Shown piece after piece: positions 25,839 through 29,713 of a stretch of DNA of 64,000 bases (position 1 is its first letter; each line of letters starts with the position of its first letter). Below the pieces are notes generated by a model. It saw only the letters and a program-made list of their open reading frames with translations, ran no database searches and was not told the DNA's origin. Origin of the DNA: an uncultured Bacteroidales bacterium (GTDB lineage Bacteria > Bacteroidota > Bacteroidia > Bacteroidales > UBA932); contig ONKO01000010.1 of assembly GCA_900318445.1 (NCBI GenBank), positions 62,001 through 126,000 on the forward strand. The letters run 5' to 3'. The position numbers and the translations under genes were made by a program.

Positions 25839-26306
25839 TTACAGGGAAATTTCTACGATTTCAAACTTCATGACACCGCTGGGGACCTTGGCTTCCACGG
25901 TTTCTCCCTTGCTGTGGCCGATGAGGGCCTTGGCAATGGGGGTGGTGGCAGCCAGGAGGCCCTTGGAGAAGTCGGCCTCGGTTTCGGGTACAATCTGGAA
26001 GTTCATCACCATCTTGTTGGTGAGGTTTTTCACTTTCACTTTGGAAAGGAGCTGGACGGTGTCGGTGGAGAGCTTGCTCTCGTCAATGACACGGGCGTTG
26101 GCCACTTTCTCCTTGAGACGGGCTATCTTCACCTCCAAAAGGCCCTGTGCGTCACGGGCTGCATCATACTCTGCGTTCTCGGAGAGGTCTCCCTTTTCGC
26201 GGGCCTCTGCGATGGCGGCAGAAATCACCGGCCGCTGGGCCAGTGCATCGGCGAGTTCCTGCTTCAGTTTATCCAGGCCCGCCTGGGTCATCATTTCGAT
26301 TGCCAT
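25839..26306 (-). CDS. greA: Transcription elongation factor GreA
   Basis: 155 aa. The N-terminal coiled coil carries the tip acidic residues in EKGDLSENAEYDAARD, which enter the RNA polymerase secondary channel and stimulate cleavage of backtracked RNA; the C-terminal FKBP-like domain includes LLAATTPIAKALIGHSKGE. First gene of the greA-HIT-lipoprotein-tsaB run. A terminator-like hairpin lies between its -7 element and the start codon, described separately. Confidence 0.96.
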   Translation of the reverse strand: MAIEMMTQAGLDKLKQELADALAQRPVISAAIAEAREKGDLSENAEYDAARDAQGLLEVKIARLKEKVANARVIDESKLSTDTVQLLSKVKVKNLTNKMVMNFQIVPETEADFSKGLLAATTPIAKALIGHSKGETVEAKVPSGVMKFEIVEISL

Positions 26307-26388: not shown

Positions 26389-26452
26389 GGAAATTAATTT
26401 GAAAAAAACTATTTCCGGTTGTCAATGACTAAAATGTCGGGGAATAAGTTCC

Positions 26453-26613
26453 GTCGCAGGTCGGTGGCTGCTTCGTCGCAGGTCCGCGTTTTCTTCACGA
26501 ACTGCGACGCAAATCGGCCATCGGCTCGTCATGGCGTCGCAGGTCGGCCGATTTTTGCACACCTGCGACGTTTTGCTTGCTCACCTGCGACGGTGCAGCC
26601 CCGCACCTGCGAC
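26453..26613. repeat. GTCGCAGG repeat array A
   Basis: GTCGCAGG starts at 26453, 26475 and 26536; the inverse form CCTGCGAC starts at 26562, 26584 and 26606 (CTGCGAC also at 26502). Outer units are exactly 22 bp apart. It begins 17 bases beyond the transposase stop codon. With the greA promoter and hairpin this accounts for the 324-base gap between greA and the transposase gene. Confidence 0.92.
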
Positions 26614-26630
26614 AGTGCGCCCCCGCACAC

Positions 26631-27584
26631 CTACTGCCCACAGTCACCCGAATGCTGCACGGGGCGTCGCCGGGGAAGCAGACTGGCCACCGTATCCCTG
26701 GGCAGTTGGAGGCAGCGGGAGAGTTGCGGAATGGTCGTCCGGTAGGATCTGTACAGGTAAGGCAGCAGGTAGGACTTCTGTTCCGGGGACAGTTCTATCA
26801 CCGTTTTGCCGTACCATTTGTCGGCGAGACGGGTGATGACGGCAAGCATTTCGGCATCGGCGTGCTTCTCACGGCCACTGAGTACCAGCATCTGTTGCAT
26901 CTCGGAGGGATTGACCGAGCCAATGGTCTTCAGAAAGAAAGCCTGATCATTGTCAAAGGCGCTTTCCAGGTACTGCCAGTCGCAGGCGCTGGCGGGTTCA
27001 ATGCCGTAATCTGCATTGAGCACCCAGGGAACGGAAGAAAGGTCTTCGTGTGTATGGAAGATGGCCTCACGGTCGCGGCGGGGTAAATCGGCCACTCGAT
27101 AGACGCCGCCTTGGCATCGGCCTCCGGAGAACATGCCGCGGTAGGACGACCAGCGATAATCCTCTACCCGCATGCCGGTATCCGCTGTATTGCGGGGGAT
27201 GTAGGCCAGGGCGTTCCGGACATACCAGTTGTTATCCAGGTATTTGACACAGATATCGGATCGGCTCAGGATTCCCCTCTCGTTGTATTTCCAGCTCAGG
27301 TACTGAGAGTGGTGCTTCTTGATGAACTCCCCTACTTTTTGGGCCGATGGCATCCCGGGAGCCAGCACCGCGATATGCCCGTGATTGGACATGGCAATCT
27401 CGGAAATCACCCGGCAGTCATTCTTCCAGGCGCCAAGGTAAAATGACTTCTGAAGATGGTCATAGTCTTCGTCATCCCGGCACAGCATCACCTTTTCCAT
27501 ACCCTCCAGACTGATATGAAACGGATGCATCTGGACAATGGTGCCATTTTTCAAGGGACGGCTGACAATTCTCTGAAAGGCCAT
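26631..27584 (-). CDS. REP-associated tyrosine transposase (RAYT-like)
   Basis: 317 aa HUH single-strand nuclease of the IS200/RAYT superfamily (Y1_Tnp). The metal-binding motif is AMSNHGHIAVL (His68, His70). A catalytic tyrosine candidate lies in NWYVRNALAYIPRN (Y121 or Y128), followed by DYRWSSYRGMF, a hallmark of RAYTs. Residues about 230-310 add a helical C-terminal domain with HTH character (TTIPQLSRCLQLPRDTVASLL) that could bind the flanking repeats. RAYTs usually occur as single copies next to REP sequences rather than as typical insertion sequences, as seen here. It follows the unknown gene by 2 bases and was probably transcribed with it. Confidence 0.88.
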   Translation of the reverse strand: MAFQRIVSRPLKNGTIVQMHPFHISLEGMEKVMLCRDDEDYDHLQKSFYLGAWKNDCRVISEIAMSNHGHIAVLAPGMPSAQKVGEFIKKHHSQYLSWKYNERGILSRSDICVKYLDNNWYVRNALAYIPRNTADTGMRVEDYRWSSYRGMFSGGRCQGGVYRVADLPRRDREAIFHTHEDLSSVPWVLNADYGIEPASACDWQYLESAFDNDQAFFLKTIGSVNPSEMQQMLVLSGREKHADAEMLAVITRLADKWYGKTVIELSPEQKSYLLPYLYRSYRTTIPQLSRCLQLPRDTVASLLPRRRPVQHSGDCGQ

Positions 27585-27586
27585 AA

Positions 27587-28018
27587 TTAACTCTTTTGGG
27601 GAGAAATGGGGAACATGGCGGTCATCAAAGCTTCCGGACCGCCCATCTTGATAGGTCGAATCATCTTGGAAGGATCGAACCCGTATGGACGTTTCAGCTT
27701 GGATGAAAACTTTTCGTAGTGAGGAATATAATCGAACATCAGGGAGTACCAGAGCTGCTCGGCGTGATCGTACGGCTGAGCACAGGAAATGATTTCACCC
27801 ATGGAAAGGATGCGAATCGCCTTGCTGGGATTCTGGTTTTTGTTGTTCCACACTTCAGTAATCATGGAGCGGATGGTACGCCGATGCAAATCATCCATCT
27901 CGAAAGCATAGCGGGAAAAATCCGCTGGCGGATTATCTACATTGTCTGCAAAACAAAAATCGGTGCTGAAATGCAGCAGGCCATCGTCGTCCATCAGGAC
28001 TTCAAGGAATTTTTTCAT
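27587..28018 (-). CDS. Unknown protein co-transcribed with the RAYT transposase
   Basis: 143 aa that I do not recognise. It is acidic at the N-terminus (VLMDDDGLLHFSTDFCF), has a mixed middle with DDLHRRTIRSMITEVW and ILSMGEIISCAQPYDHAEQLWYSL, and a basic, Pro/Met-rich C-terminus (KLKRPYGFDPSKMIRPIKMGG). No signal peptide, membrane helix or metal motif. It is the first gene of a two-gene unit: its stop is 2 bases before the transposase start, with a good promoter about 80 bases upstream. It might be an accessory factor of the transposase; this is inference from position only. Confidence 0.75.
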   Translation of the reverse strand: MKKFLEVLMDDDGLLHFSTDFCFADNVDNPPADFSRYAFEMDDLHRRTIRSMITEVWNNKNQNPSKAIRILSMGEIISCAQPYDHAEQLWYSLMFDYIPHYEKFSSKLKRPYGFDPSKMIRPIKMGGPEALMTAMFPISPQKS

Positions 28019-28096
28019 AACGGGCTTGATTAAAGGTTAAACGTTGGCCGATTGAAGTACTCGGCATAACGAGCACAGGAGGCCTTGCGCTCGTTA

Positions 28097-28131
28097 CAAA
28101 CATAGAAAAGAAGTTTTCCCATTCCAACAAA
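28097..28131 (-). promoter_or_regulatory. Promoter of the RAYT operon
   Basis: Minus-strand TTTG (28128-28131), a 23-base spacer and TATGTTTG (28097-28104). The leader before the start at 28018 is about 75 bases. Confidence 0.55.
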
Positions 28132-28252
28132 CGGCTAAAACATAGTGCGGTTTCAGGTGAATGTTTTTCTGTTTTGACCACATTTCAAAGAAATCGACCA
28201 CTTTTATGGTCGATTTGCAAATGTTTTTTATGCTTCGAAAGGGATTGGGGAT
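28132..28252. other. Intergenic segment with short stem-loop
   Basis: AT-richer than its surroundings. One perfect 10-bp stem-loop pairs 28191-28200 with 28207-28216. I see no gene. With the RAYT operon promoter and array B it makes up the 570-base gap between 28018 and ribF. Confidence 0.6.
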
Positions 28253-28569
28253 GTCGCAGGCCGGGGCCAAGGGTGTCGCAGGTCGGGGATTGGGGGTGTC
28301 GCAGGCCGGGGATTGGGGGTGTCGCAGGCCGGGGCCCAGGGGGTCGCAGGTCTACTAACAAAACGTCGCAGGTCCGCAAAAAACGGCTAACCCGCGACGC
28401 AATGGTGTACTGATGGCCGATTTGCGTCGCAGTTCAGAAGAAAAACGCAGACCTGCGACGTTCTGGGGCGTGACCTGCGACGTTCTGGGGCATGACCTGC
28501 GACGTTCCAGGGCATGACCTGCGACGTTCCGGGGCGTGACCAGCAACGTTCCGGGGCGTGACCAGCAAC
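28253..28569. repeat. GTCGCAGG repeat array B
   Basis: GTCGCAGG starts at 28253, 28275, 28298, 28321, 28343 and 28365 (22-23 bp spacing); after a palindromic centre the inverse CCTGCGAC starts at 28452, 28474, 28496 and 28518, with degenerate CCAGCAAC at 28540 and 28562, all exactly 22 bp apart. Spacers on the left are rich in GGGGATTGGGGG-like sequence, those on the right in GTTCTGGGGCGTGA-like sequence. It ends about 20 bases from the ribF stop codon. Confidence 0.93.
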
Positions 28570-28588
28570 GTTCTGGGCTGTAAGCAGA

Positions 28589-29713
28589 TTAGCGGGAGCA
28601 GGCGTCGCGGTCCAGGAGGAGCTGCGTGCGGAGGGCGTCCAGGGAGGGGAAACGGCGCTCGTCACGGATGCGGCGGAGGAAACGGAGGGTCAGGGGCAGG
28701 CCGTAGATGTCCTGGTCGAAGTCCAGGATGTGGGTCTCGATGGTGCGGGCCTTGCCGTCTACGGTAGGGCGCACGCCAATGTTGCACATGCCACGGTAAT
28801 GCTGGCCAAGGACCTCTACCTCAACGGCATAAACACCGTTCATGGGGACTAGCTTCAGGGGTTCGTACAGCTGCATGTTGGCCGTAGGGAAGCCGATGGT
28901 GCGGCCCATCTGGTTTCCGGAGACCACAACGCCGTGGAGCGGATAGGCGTAGCCCAGCATGGCATTCGCATCCTCCACTCTCCCCTCTCCCAGTGCCTTC
29001 CGGATCTGAGTGGAAGAAATAACCGGAGATTCTTCGCTTCGCTCAGAATGACAGCAAGAATGCGCGGCACTATCGCGCGTGGGGTTTGCGATGGCCGAAG
29101 GAATTTGGTTTTTCGCAAAGCCTTGCGAAAAATAAATTCCTTCGGCCGTGGGCCCGGAAGATTCTGACACCGAAACAGGGGTTTTGGTGTCAGAACCGCC
29201 CAAAACGTCGGGGGCTGTCGGGAGAGGGGTATTCCTCTCAAACCTGTGCCACCCTCGGCAACATAAGAGGGAGGGGCCCACGAAGTGGGAGGGGTCGGCG
29301 CAGCCGACGGTTTGAGAGGAATACCCCTCTTCCGACAGCTGTGCGCAGGTTTTCATATCAGAGCCGATACGGTTGTCATAGCCCATGACGACGAGCGTGG
29401 CGCCGTAGCGGTCCCGCAGCAGGGCCAGATAGTCGGAGGCCGTCATGGATGCGAACGCACGGGTGAAAGGCAGCACCTCAACGCGGTCTATCCCGCAGGA
29501 GAGGAGCAGCGCCTTCTTCTCCTCCATCGAGGAGAGGAGCCGGAAATCCCTTGCGTCCTGCTGCAGGACGGTACGCGGGTGCGGCCAGAATGTAACGACA
29601 ACGGCCTCCTCGCCCCTTTCCCGGGCCGAGGAGACCACTGTCTCAAGGACATGACGGTGCCCCAGATGGACACCGTCGAAAAAACCGGTTGTAATTACAG
29701 CCACTTCACGCAC
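28589..29713 (-). CDS. ribF: Bifunctional riboflavin kinase/FMN adenylyltransferase with in-frame insertion
   Basis: Makes FMN and FAD from riboflavin; 374 aa against about 310 usual. Residues 1-118 are the adenylyltransferase domain (TTGFFDGVHLGHRHVL, TFWPHPRTVL, VVMGYDNRIGSD). The KISSxxIR-like signature VISSTQIRKAL appears only at 231-241, after about 107 residues (124-230) of low-quality sequence containing ERNTPLP and CHSERSEESP, encoded by a palindromic repeat. About 30 native residues expected here seem to be missing. The riboflavin kinase domain follows intact (GRTIGFPTANMQL, GVYAVEVEV, HILDFDQDIYG). The frame is open, but adenylyltransferase activity may be affected. The start overlaps the glycogen operon's last gene by 19 bases. 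Confidence 0.88.
   Translation of the reverse strand: MREVAVITTGFFDGVHLGHRHVLETVVSSARERGEEAVVVTFWPHPRTVLQQDARDFRLLSSMEEKKALLLSCGIDRVEVLPFTRAFASMTASDYLALLRDRYGATLVVMGYDNRIGSDMKTCAQLSEEGYSSQTVGCADPSHFVGPSLLCCRGWHRFERNTPLPTAPDVLGGSDTKTPVSVSESSGPTAEGIYFSQGFAKNQIPSAIANPTRDSAAHSCCHSERSEESPVISSTQIRKALGEGRVEDANAMLGYAYPLHGVVVSGNQMGRTIGFPTANMQLYEPLKLVPMNGVYAVEVEVLGQHYRGMCNIGVRPTVDGKARTIETHILDFDQDIYGLPLTLRFLRRIRDERRFPSLDALRTQLLLDRDACSR
29024..29344. repeat. Palindromic element inserted in ribF
   Basis: Composite repeat inside the ribF frame. From left: a 26-base segment (28-53 of 29000) whose minus-strand frame encodes HSERSEES; hairpin 1 (29093-29147, 24 paired bases with a small internal loop); hairpin 2 (29162-29195, 15 pairs); hairpin 3 with 31-base arms (29214-29244 and 29309-29339) and one mismatch, enclosing G-rich sequence. 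Translation through the element stays open in the ribF frame. Confidence 0.85.

Follow-up and report, generated by a model that had tools for sequence, protein, structure and literature searches.

Several REP-associated tyrosine transposases (RAYTs) can share one genome, and how each of them distinguishes its own repetitive extragenic palindromes (REPs) from those of its sisters is a question to which we know of no answer. It is raised by a locus of an uncultured Bacteroidales bacterium (assembly GCA_900318445.1) in a stretch of 64,000 nucleotides of contig ONKO01000010.1 (positions 62,001 to 126,000), hereafter the window. Here, a gene for a TnpA_REP-like transposase of the Y1 HuH type (P0001, 317 aa; 26631..27584, minus strand) and a gene for a small accessory protein (P0002, 143 aa; 27587..28018, minus strand) lie between two arrays of short repeats that are inverted relative to each other. 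The locus is probably a REPtron whose RAYT belongs to a new clade, with a residue-to-base code linking the transposase to its repeats and with helper proteins.

Transposase and Repeat Arrays

A preliminary description of the window had reported a Y1_Tnp/RAYT-like gene and a tightly coupled 143-aa gene, and both were confirmed. The P0002 frame lies upstream of the RAYT and ends 2 bp before it, and the two genes are presumably co-transcribed. The RAYT carries the HuH motif NHGH (residues 67-70; 27375..27386, minus strand) and the motifs YIPRNT...DYRWSS, with Y128 of YIPRN as the proposed catalytic tyrosine (27201..27203, minus strand). The combination of a HuH motif with a single tyrosine, which is characteristic of RAYTs, was found throughout: N67, H68, H70, and Y128 were invariant in all 71 aligned sequences. 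The AlphaFold2 model of P0001 (pLDDT 91.1) matched best the PDB entry 4er8_A (E 4e-4, probability 1.00, TM-score 0.62 by target and 0.34 by query), whose title names a REP-associated tyrosine transposase bound to a REP hairpin and which we take to be the E. coli enzyme; the TnpA proteins of IS608 and ISDra2 followed. This fold was not visible from the amino acid sequence alone, since the Pfam Y1_Tnp score (12.9 bits) was under the cut-off of 23 and the PDB sequence search gave one match only (E 0.84).

Matches to P0001 were found in 84 of the 101 genomes of the genus. A total of 133 relatives, distributed over 149 stretches, came from the contig scan, and 80 were retained; these are labelled as Bacteroidales or Bacteroidia metagenome-assembled genomes, many of them named for ruminant samples, except for two Prevotellaceae and one Fibrobacter bin. 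Together with 31 loci from the genome search, 111 loci were used, 105 of them with an intact RAYT frame, and the non-redundant set comprised 88 RAYTs after dropping pairs at 95% identity.

The window contains the word GTCGCAGG 19 times versus 2.79 expected (0 of 100 shuffles had as many), and 16 of these sites are located inside the two arrays, 26453-26613 and 28253-28525, with a period of 22 bp. The array located 3' of the RAYT (26452..26614) contains seven ACCTGCGACG units with no more than one mismatch, and its unit order, with up to two mismatches allowed, is < 22 < 26 > 35 < 26 > 22 > 22 >. The array located 5' of the operon (28252..28570; 14 units, up to two mismatches) has the same centre and orientation order and more units, and it extends to about 28570 through degenerate units. 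The two arrays had been described as tandem repeats with 95-bp cores about 80% identical in opposite orientation. The inverted arrangement holds, with a measured length of 141 nt at 77% identity; the arrays hold too, not as one-way tandems, each being ordered '< ... < 26 > 35 < 26 > ... >'. In the first array, a REPIN-like core of 98 nt (26474..26571) is predicted to form a nested double-stem hairpin with outer CGTCGCAGGT/ACCTGCGACG, and the core of the second array (28364..28461, 98 nt) has the opposite orientation. Folding was computed as single-stranded DNA for both strands of both copies versus 200 shuffles. The z values were -4.6 (plus) and -4.2 (minus) for the first core and -3.8 and -5.6 for the second, and none of the 200 shuffles was as stable on either strand.

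The Shared Tag ACCT

Among 84 loci with enough flanking sequence, over-represented 8-mers were detected in 71, and those of 54 loci included ACCT. When all 256 tetranucleotide tags were ranked, ACCT combined with a repeated 4-mer came top, being present on both sides in 44 loci (median 2), followed by GACC, which overlaps ACCT, in 37. A strict repeat call (at least three copies, both sides, p <= 0.01) was satisfied by 48 of the 84 loci with 16 different 4-mers. The repeats flank the RAYT in these loci and, in the genome containing the window, are also dispersed, as is known of REPs, with ACCT as the common tag and not GT[AG]G at the REP foot. Neighbouring units on the same strand are most often spaced by 22 (60 cases) or 21 (22 cases), then by 61-63, 42-44, or 75, and opposite units '<>' are spaced by 25 in 100 cases. 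Two RAYTs of the clade (L076 and L138) have repeats with ACCG (GACCGTCAC and CCTGACCGTG) in place of ACCT, perhaps a changed tag, and the RAYT of L079 (genome G269) ends in a C-terminal PGPGPTT-like tail that looks encoded by its own repeats.

The phasing of 21-22 bp suggests that double-stranded DNA is read at the arrays, and the hairpin suggests that single-stranded DNA is read at the core. The first of these points also favours a rival reading, in which the arrays are ordinary tandem or iteron-like regulatory or nucleoid-binding sites, spread by slippage and recombination, and the RAYT is a domesticated regulator that binds without moving them; a spacing of 21-23 bp in nine motif families suggests helical phasing. 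Against this reading, which is unlikely, stand the four-unit core of 98 nt with its fixed geometry, recurring at separate loci, and the invariance of H68, H70, and Y128 (71 of 71), which a mere binder would not need.

Correspondence between Residues and Bases

The RAYT probably recognizes short units made of the ACCT tag and, after it, four bases that differ between RAYTs. Each RAYT alignment column was compared with each of these four bases by normalised mutual information (MI) in a training set of 70 loci (at least three copies, p <= 0.02; in some of them the motif is confined to one flank). The highest MI for base 1 was that of residue 179 (0.76, versus 0.33 for the next column) and for base 2 that of residue 173 (0.77, versus 0.26); for both base 3 and base 4 it was that of residue 169 (0.47 and 0.36). 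In training, each residue at position 179 is paired with one base 1: H or R with G (32/32), G or A with T (33/33), N with A (3/3), and C with C (2/2). Likewise, each residue at position 173 is paired with one base 2: E with C (35/35), R with G (26/26), D with G (three loci), G with G (two), I with T (two), and, in single cases, A with T and S with A. Less strictly, residues 169 and 172 set bases 3-4, K169 going with CC (30/30), R169 and R172 with GA (9/9), and R169 and K172 with GC (13/14). The RAYT of the window, with R169, R172, E173, and H179, matches its repeat bases, ACCT-GCGA. All four residues belong to the proposed recognition helix and the turn that follows it (residues 169-179; 27048..27080, minus strand), of which residues 169-176 are helical in the model. 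Residue 179 probably reads base 1 and residue 173 base 2, with 169 and 172 jointly reading bases 3 and 4, presumably through direct contact. In textbook protein-DNA chemistry Arg and His favour G, Asn favours A, and Glu/Asp favour C; the pairing of D173 with G deviates from these preferences.

The residue-base table was fixed before it was applied to a held-out pool of 44 loci: 20 newly fetched ones (genus matches down to E 1.7e-38) and 24 earlier unlabelled ones, whose counts had been known and were not used. Three loci were near-copies of training rows and 23 had a top count below 4, self-complementary sites being counted once, which left 18 evaluable loci, some of them mutually close (L096-L098), at a cut-off that was chosen after the counts were visible. 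Base 1 was predicted correctly in 16 of 16 cases, base 2 in 15 of 15, and base 4 in 10 of 11. For bases 1-2 together, this is 31 of 31 versus a mean of 13.5 and a maximum of 24 in 20,000 permutations, and the freshly fetched loci (nine evaluable) gave 13 of 13. Eleven further held-out loci had a top count of exactly 3. Six of them (L232, L234, L119, L123, L136, and L156) agreed as far as predicted, and L227 had no prediction; the 12 loci with a top count of 1-2 were left out of judging.

Shared ancestry could produce a match between residues and bases without physical contact, and the repeat labels do track the RAYT tree (36 changes versus 62.2 when shuffled, 0 of 200 as low, unlabelled rows being treated as one label). 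The minimum numbers of changes on the tree are at least four for base 1 and at least six for base 2, and strictly independent supported pairs are few: 2, 4, and 2, of which base 1 has 2 and base 2 has 4, all concordant and too few for significance. Ancestry as the only cause is nevertheless very unlikely. Columns 179 and 173 stand far above all others, and most pairings fit the chemistry given above. With training rows of less than 50% identity only, the rule was right in 58 of 58 (base 1) and 61 of 61 (base 2) of the cases covered, where the nearest such row was right in just 42 and 49 of 70. New combinations were also predicted, namely GGCC in L095, though its nearest training row (L091) has GCGA, and TCGC in L232, with all four bases correct and never combined in training (three copies only).

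Proposed Helper Genes

A helper match was found upstream of 60 of the 88 non-redundant RAYTs: 24 of type A (the kind in the window), 27 of the related type B (about 117 aa), 6 of the HRDC type, and 3 with both. In 57 of the 60, the end of the helper frame is close to the start of the RAYT, at a distance of -1, 1, or 2 in 37 of these 57. HRDC helpers number 15 (13 distinct) among the 111 loci, and in four of them (L089, L090, L091, and L097) the gene order is HRDC, A, RAYT.

The three HRDC-type helpers tested all matched PF00570 (E 2.4e-19, 1.4e-15, and 2.3e-18), the HRDC domain of RecQ and RNase D; unlike known HRDC proteins, the helpers are stand-alone, of about 114-153 aa, and encoded in a RAYT operon. 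Three helpers of types A and B had no family above a cut-off in the same search. P0002 matched no Pfam, NCBIfam, or PHROGs family at E <= 1, hence not PF00570 either, and its model (pLDDT 89.9), an N-terminal beta hairpin with helices, had no PDB fold match at E <= 0.001. P0002 was therefore rejected as an HRDC protein; only its N-terminal 25 residues resemble HRDC helpers. For these first 25 residues, the resemblance between type A and HRDC helpers was seen by hhalign (E 5e-5, probability 68%). In an N-terminal profile test with L121 not included, 11 of 12 distinct HRDC helpers scored above the 99th percentile of the 326 starts used as controls, but only three of them above the control maximum, and L089 fell below the percentile. 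A search of 199 family genomes with P0002 gave matches in six, the own genome included, belonging to three genera; all six were beside a RAYT, and in four of them, of another genus, the homologue was downstream of a more distant RAYT. P0002 may be a helper that docks to the RAYT by its N-terminal hairpin; in other members of the clade an HRDC protein occupies the same place or is additional.

Dispersed Repeats and Sister Transposases

The genome containing the window (2.31 Mb, 32 contigs, 88% complete) has seven RAYT-like matches: that of the window, one 50% identical to it, one 43%, and four 20-27%. The 50% copy (contig C28) is flanked by GGCGCAGGT units with a period of 21, and the 43% copy (C21) by GGACCTGGTCC/GGACGAGGTCC repeats. 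A copy of the GGACCTGGTCC family apparently lies inside a tatD-like frame adjoining the C21 RAYT (L003:3024-3190). Three of the four distant genes (L004, L006, and L007, on C16, C21, and C14) have other repeats on both sides, each its own; L007 is a partial match only, and no match to the profiles of the A and HRDC helpers was found beside the three.

This genome has 47 pairs of GTCGCAGG separated by 10-20 versus 0 of the reversed pattern, and several are near contig ends. Arrays without the gene pair occur in 13 other stretches, all of which hold clustered units. The '< 26 > 35 < 26 >' centre recurs, with outward tandem units, in L164, L165, L168 (several times), and L173, and in part in L161, L167, and L170. 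Such dispersal without the gene pair matches the expectation for non-autonomous REPs. The preliminary description had held that widespread arrays with no link to the transposase would refute its reading. Within the genome such arrays do occur, and between genomes the link is present: ACCTGCGAC pairs were found in 9 of the 101 genus genomes, namely in all 4 for which a GCGA/GCGG-type RAYT is known and in 5 of the remaining 97 (Fisher 3e-5). ACCTGCGCC pairs were also found in 9, namely in 4 of the 5 for which a GCGC-type RAYT is known and in 5 of the remaining 96 (Fisher 1.5e-4). The remaining genomes may include some with such RAYTs, the types of unfetched matches being unassigned.

The dispersed element of L164, before a parA-like gene, is absent from the three relatives aligned, and the inserted stretch also includes another repeat family. 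A GCGCGAAGCAGTGGTGCTCCTGCTTAGAGCC-like family adjoins this element (L164:1240-1480). The empty place in the three relatives is a further point against the arrays being regulatory sites spread by slippage and recombination. That reading gains from the RAYT being single copy per family and kept at the greA-ribF site of the own genome, L081, and L091, and from several arrays at contig ends, where tandem growth is likely. By analogy with E. coli TnpA_REP in vitro, the RAYT should act on the single-stranded core, and its substrates would be REPIN-like elements whose core can fold as a nested hairpin and is widened by tandem units every 21-22 bp; the dispersed copies may have been moved or copied by the RAYT through single-strand cleavage.

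Genomic Context

The genes flanking the locus, which we take to be greA (25839..26306, minus strand; E <= 1e-60 match in 76 of 81 genomes) and a ribF-like gene (28589..29713, minus strand), also enclose the RAYT cassette in L081, whose RAYT is near-identical to the L052 RAYT of G226, in L091, and, inverted, in L082. Beside greA in L082, next to the inverted cassette, is an extra gene, presumably symporter-like. In L120, a helper-less RAYT lies near greA, with ribF outside the locus. Thirty greA loci were fetched out of the 76 genomes with a match: the greA-ribF gap was 78-158 bp in 14, 308 and 767 bp in two, and in 14, the own genome and G226 among them, ribF was not within 1.5 kb of greA. The empty-site comparison proposed earlier yielded these gaps, and neither a target duplication nor an exact insertion end could be defined at greA-ribF because the flanks are too diverged.

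These sites bear on whether the whole block of array, RAYT, helper, and array is a composite single-strand transposon moving as a unit. The same repeats on both sides in opposite orientation, the short gap in 14 of 30 relatives' loci, and the inverted cassette of L082 between the same host genes agree with such a unit. However, the pair is single copy in the own genome, with the nearest other RAYT 50% identical, the repeats stand alone in 13 other stretches, and P0001 had no tblastn match in plasmid and phage collections. The composite transposon was rejected as the main explanation because of the single copy and the dispersed arrays, and we give it very little probability. Of the REP-type mobile unit suggested in the preliminary description, the Bacteroidota RAYT, the non-canonical repeats, the conserved extra protein, and the link between gene and repeats stand; a complete unit ending in the arrays does not, as the 13 gene-less stretches, the single-copy pair, and the undefinable ends indicate.

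Within the ribF-like frame, the stretch 29030-29340 (about query 127-230) is often without a match in the ribF of relatives. An inverted repeat surrounds GAGGAATACCCCTC in this stretch, which also includes a CTCAGAATGACAG word found again in an array of G129.

Comparison with Known Systems

The locus was filed as a RAYT because of its fold, motifs, and repeats, and is neither a canonical GTAG REPtron nor a member of subclass 2.6. In PMC8266576, TnpA_REP is described as recognizing single-stranded DNA and cleaving at CT, with the tag helping to choose the cleavage site. P0001 resembles TnpA_REP/RAYT proteins (E. coli in group 2; Stenotrophomonas and Marinomonas in group 3) in its Y1 HuH fold with 4er8 as the best match, its own flanking repeats, dispersed inverted-pair elements, and the presence of several RAYTs per genome, each with its own repeats. 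Unlike them, it goes with an ACCT tag and not GTAG, is 317 aa long with an extended C-terminal region, has a helix behind the tyrosine that matches the variable bases, and is associated with tandem units of 21-22 bp and with helper genes.

According to PMC6006769, TnpA_Y1 subclass 2.6 of Bacteroidetes has atypical flanking structures without GTAG and the signature NH[LIV]H / YIH[QN]NP, with a median HuH-Y distance of 82. The Bacteroidota host and the atypical flanks lacking GTAG are shared. Membership was rejected, since 30 RAYTs have NH[GCASF]H, 29 of the 30 have Y[IV]xRN (YVPKN in L058), and the distance is 57 aa, although the distance measure of that paper may differ.

REPs tagged with CGTC are reported from Bacteroidetes in PMC3733652, where no transposase is assigned to them; they have a fixed unpaired CGTC, a stem of 8-9 bp, and a loop of 4-5 nt. 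The window repeat, read as CGTCGCAGGT, also begins with CGTC. Unlike in those REPs, CGTC is here the variable part of the window family, sister families reading GGCGCAGGT, GGGCAAGGT, etc., with RAYTs; this class was rejected because CGTC is not kept between families and a RAYT is linked. With IS200/IS605 elements (IS608, ISDra2), the locus shares the Y1 fold and hairpins, and it differs in having no multi-copy unit, a long protein, and a helper not recognised as TnpB. Several near-identical copies, which membership requires, were not found in the own genome.

In titles and abstract starts of mainly open-access literature, no report of RAYT helpers or of a residue-base code was found, nor a published description of the three-part system of RAYT, repeats, and dedicated helpers. 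The words 'accessory', 'partner', and 'helicase' are all absent from the available text of PMC8266576, and 'partner' occurs once in that of PMC6006769. New features of the present clade are the ACCT tag, the post-tyrosine helix matching the variable bases, the extension of the elements by units every 21-22 bp, and the helpers.

Besides the late choice of the held-out cut-off and the scarcity of independent tree pairs, the following results weigh against a REPtron with a residue-to-base code and helpers. Fourteen of the 84 loci have no ACCT+4 motif at a count of at least 3 and p <= 0.02. No helper match was found for 28 of the 88 non-redundant RAYTs, among them L138 with only 228 bp upstream, so the helper is not obligatory. 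ACCTGCGAC pairs occur in those five genomes without a known GCGA/GCGG RAYT, and G272 (80% complete) has 21 ACCTGCGCC pairs with no GCGC-type RAYT found. L108 has the residues of its GCGC relatives, yet its repeats are GCAC. Base 3 was right in only 8 of 11 held-out cases; at a top count of 3, L223, L153, and L159 were missed, and L240 was right for base 1 and wrong for base 2. S179 did not occur in training, and the base paired with it is G in L236 and A in L242, whose RAYT is only 33% like its nearest training row; because of these two bases, the table is not one-to-one for every residue in distant RAYTs. Possible further entries are Leu at position 173 in L235 (TTGA), S179 with H173 in L236 (GTGA), K173 in L237 (AGGT), and S179 with R173 in L242 (AGGT).

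Biological Meaning

On balance, we lean somewhat towards a wider proposal: a clade of single-strand transposases with a modular, readable code (one residue each for bases 1 and 2, a pair for bases 3-4), repeats predictable from the protein, at least 16 specificities, and dedicated helpers of a new fold and/or the HRDC type, with the ACCT elements forming a third superfamily of REPs in addition to GTAG and CGTC. The discrimination between own and sister REPs may then be readable from four residues. If true, this would be a recognition code inside a transposase family, would explain the coexistence of several REP families in one genome (three of the clade in the own genome), and would name partners, an HRDC protein and a protein of a new fold, for an enzyme that has until now been studied by itself.

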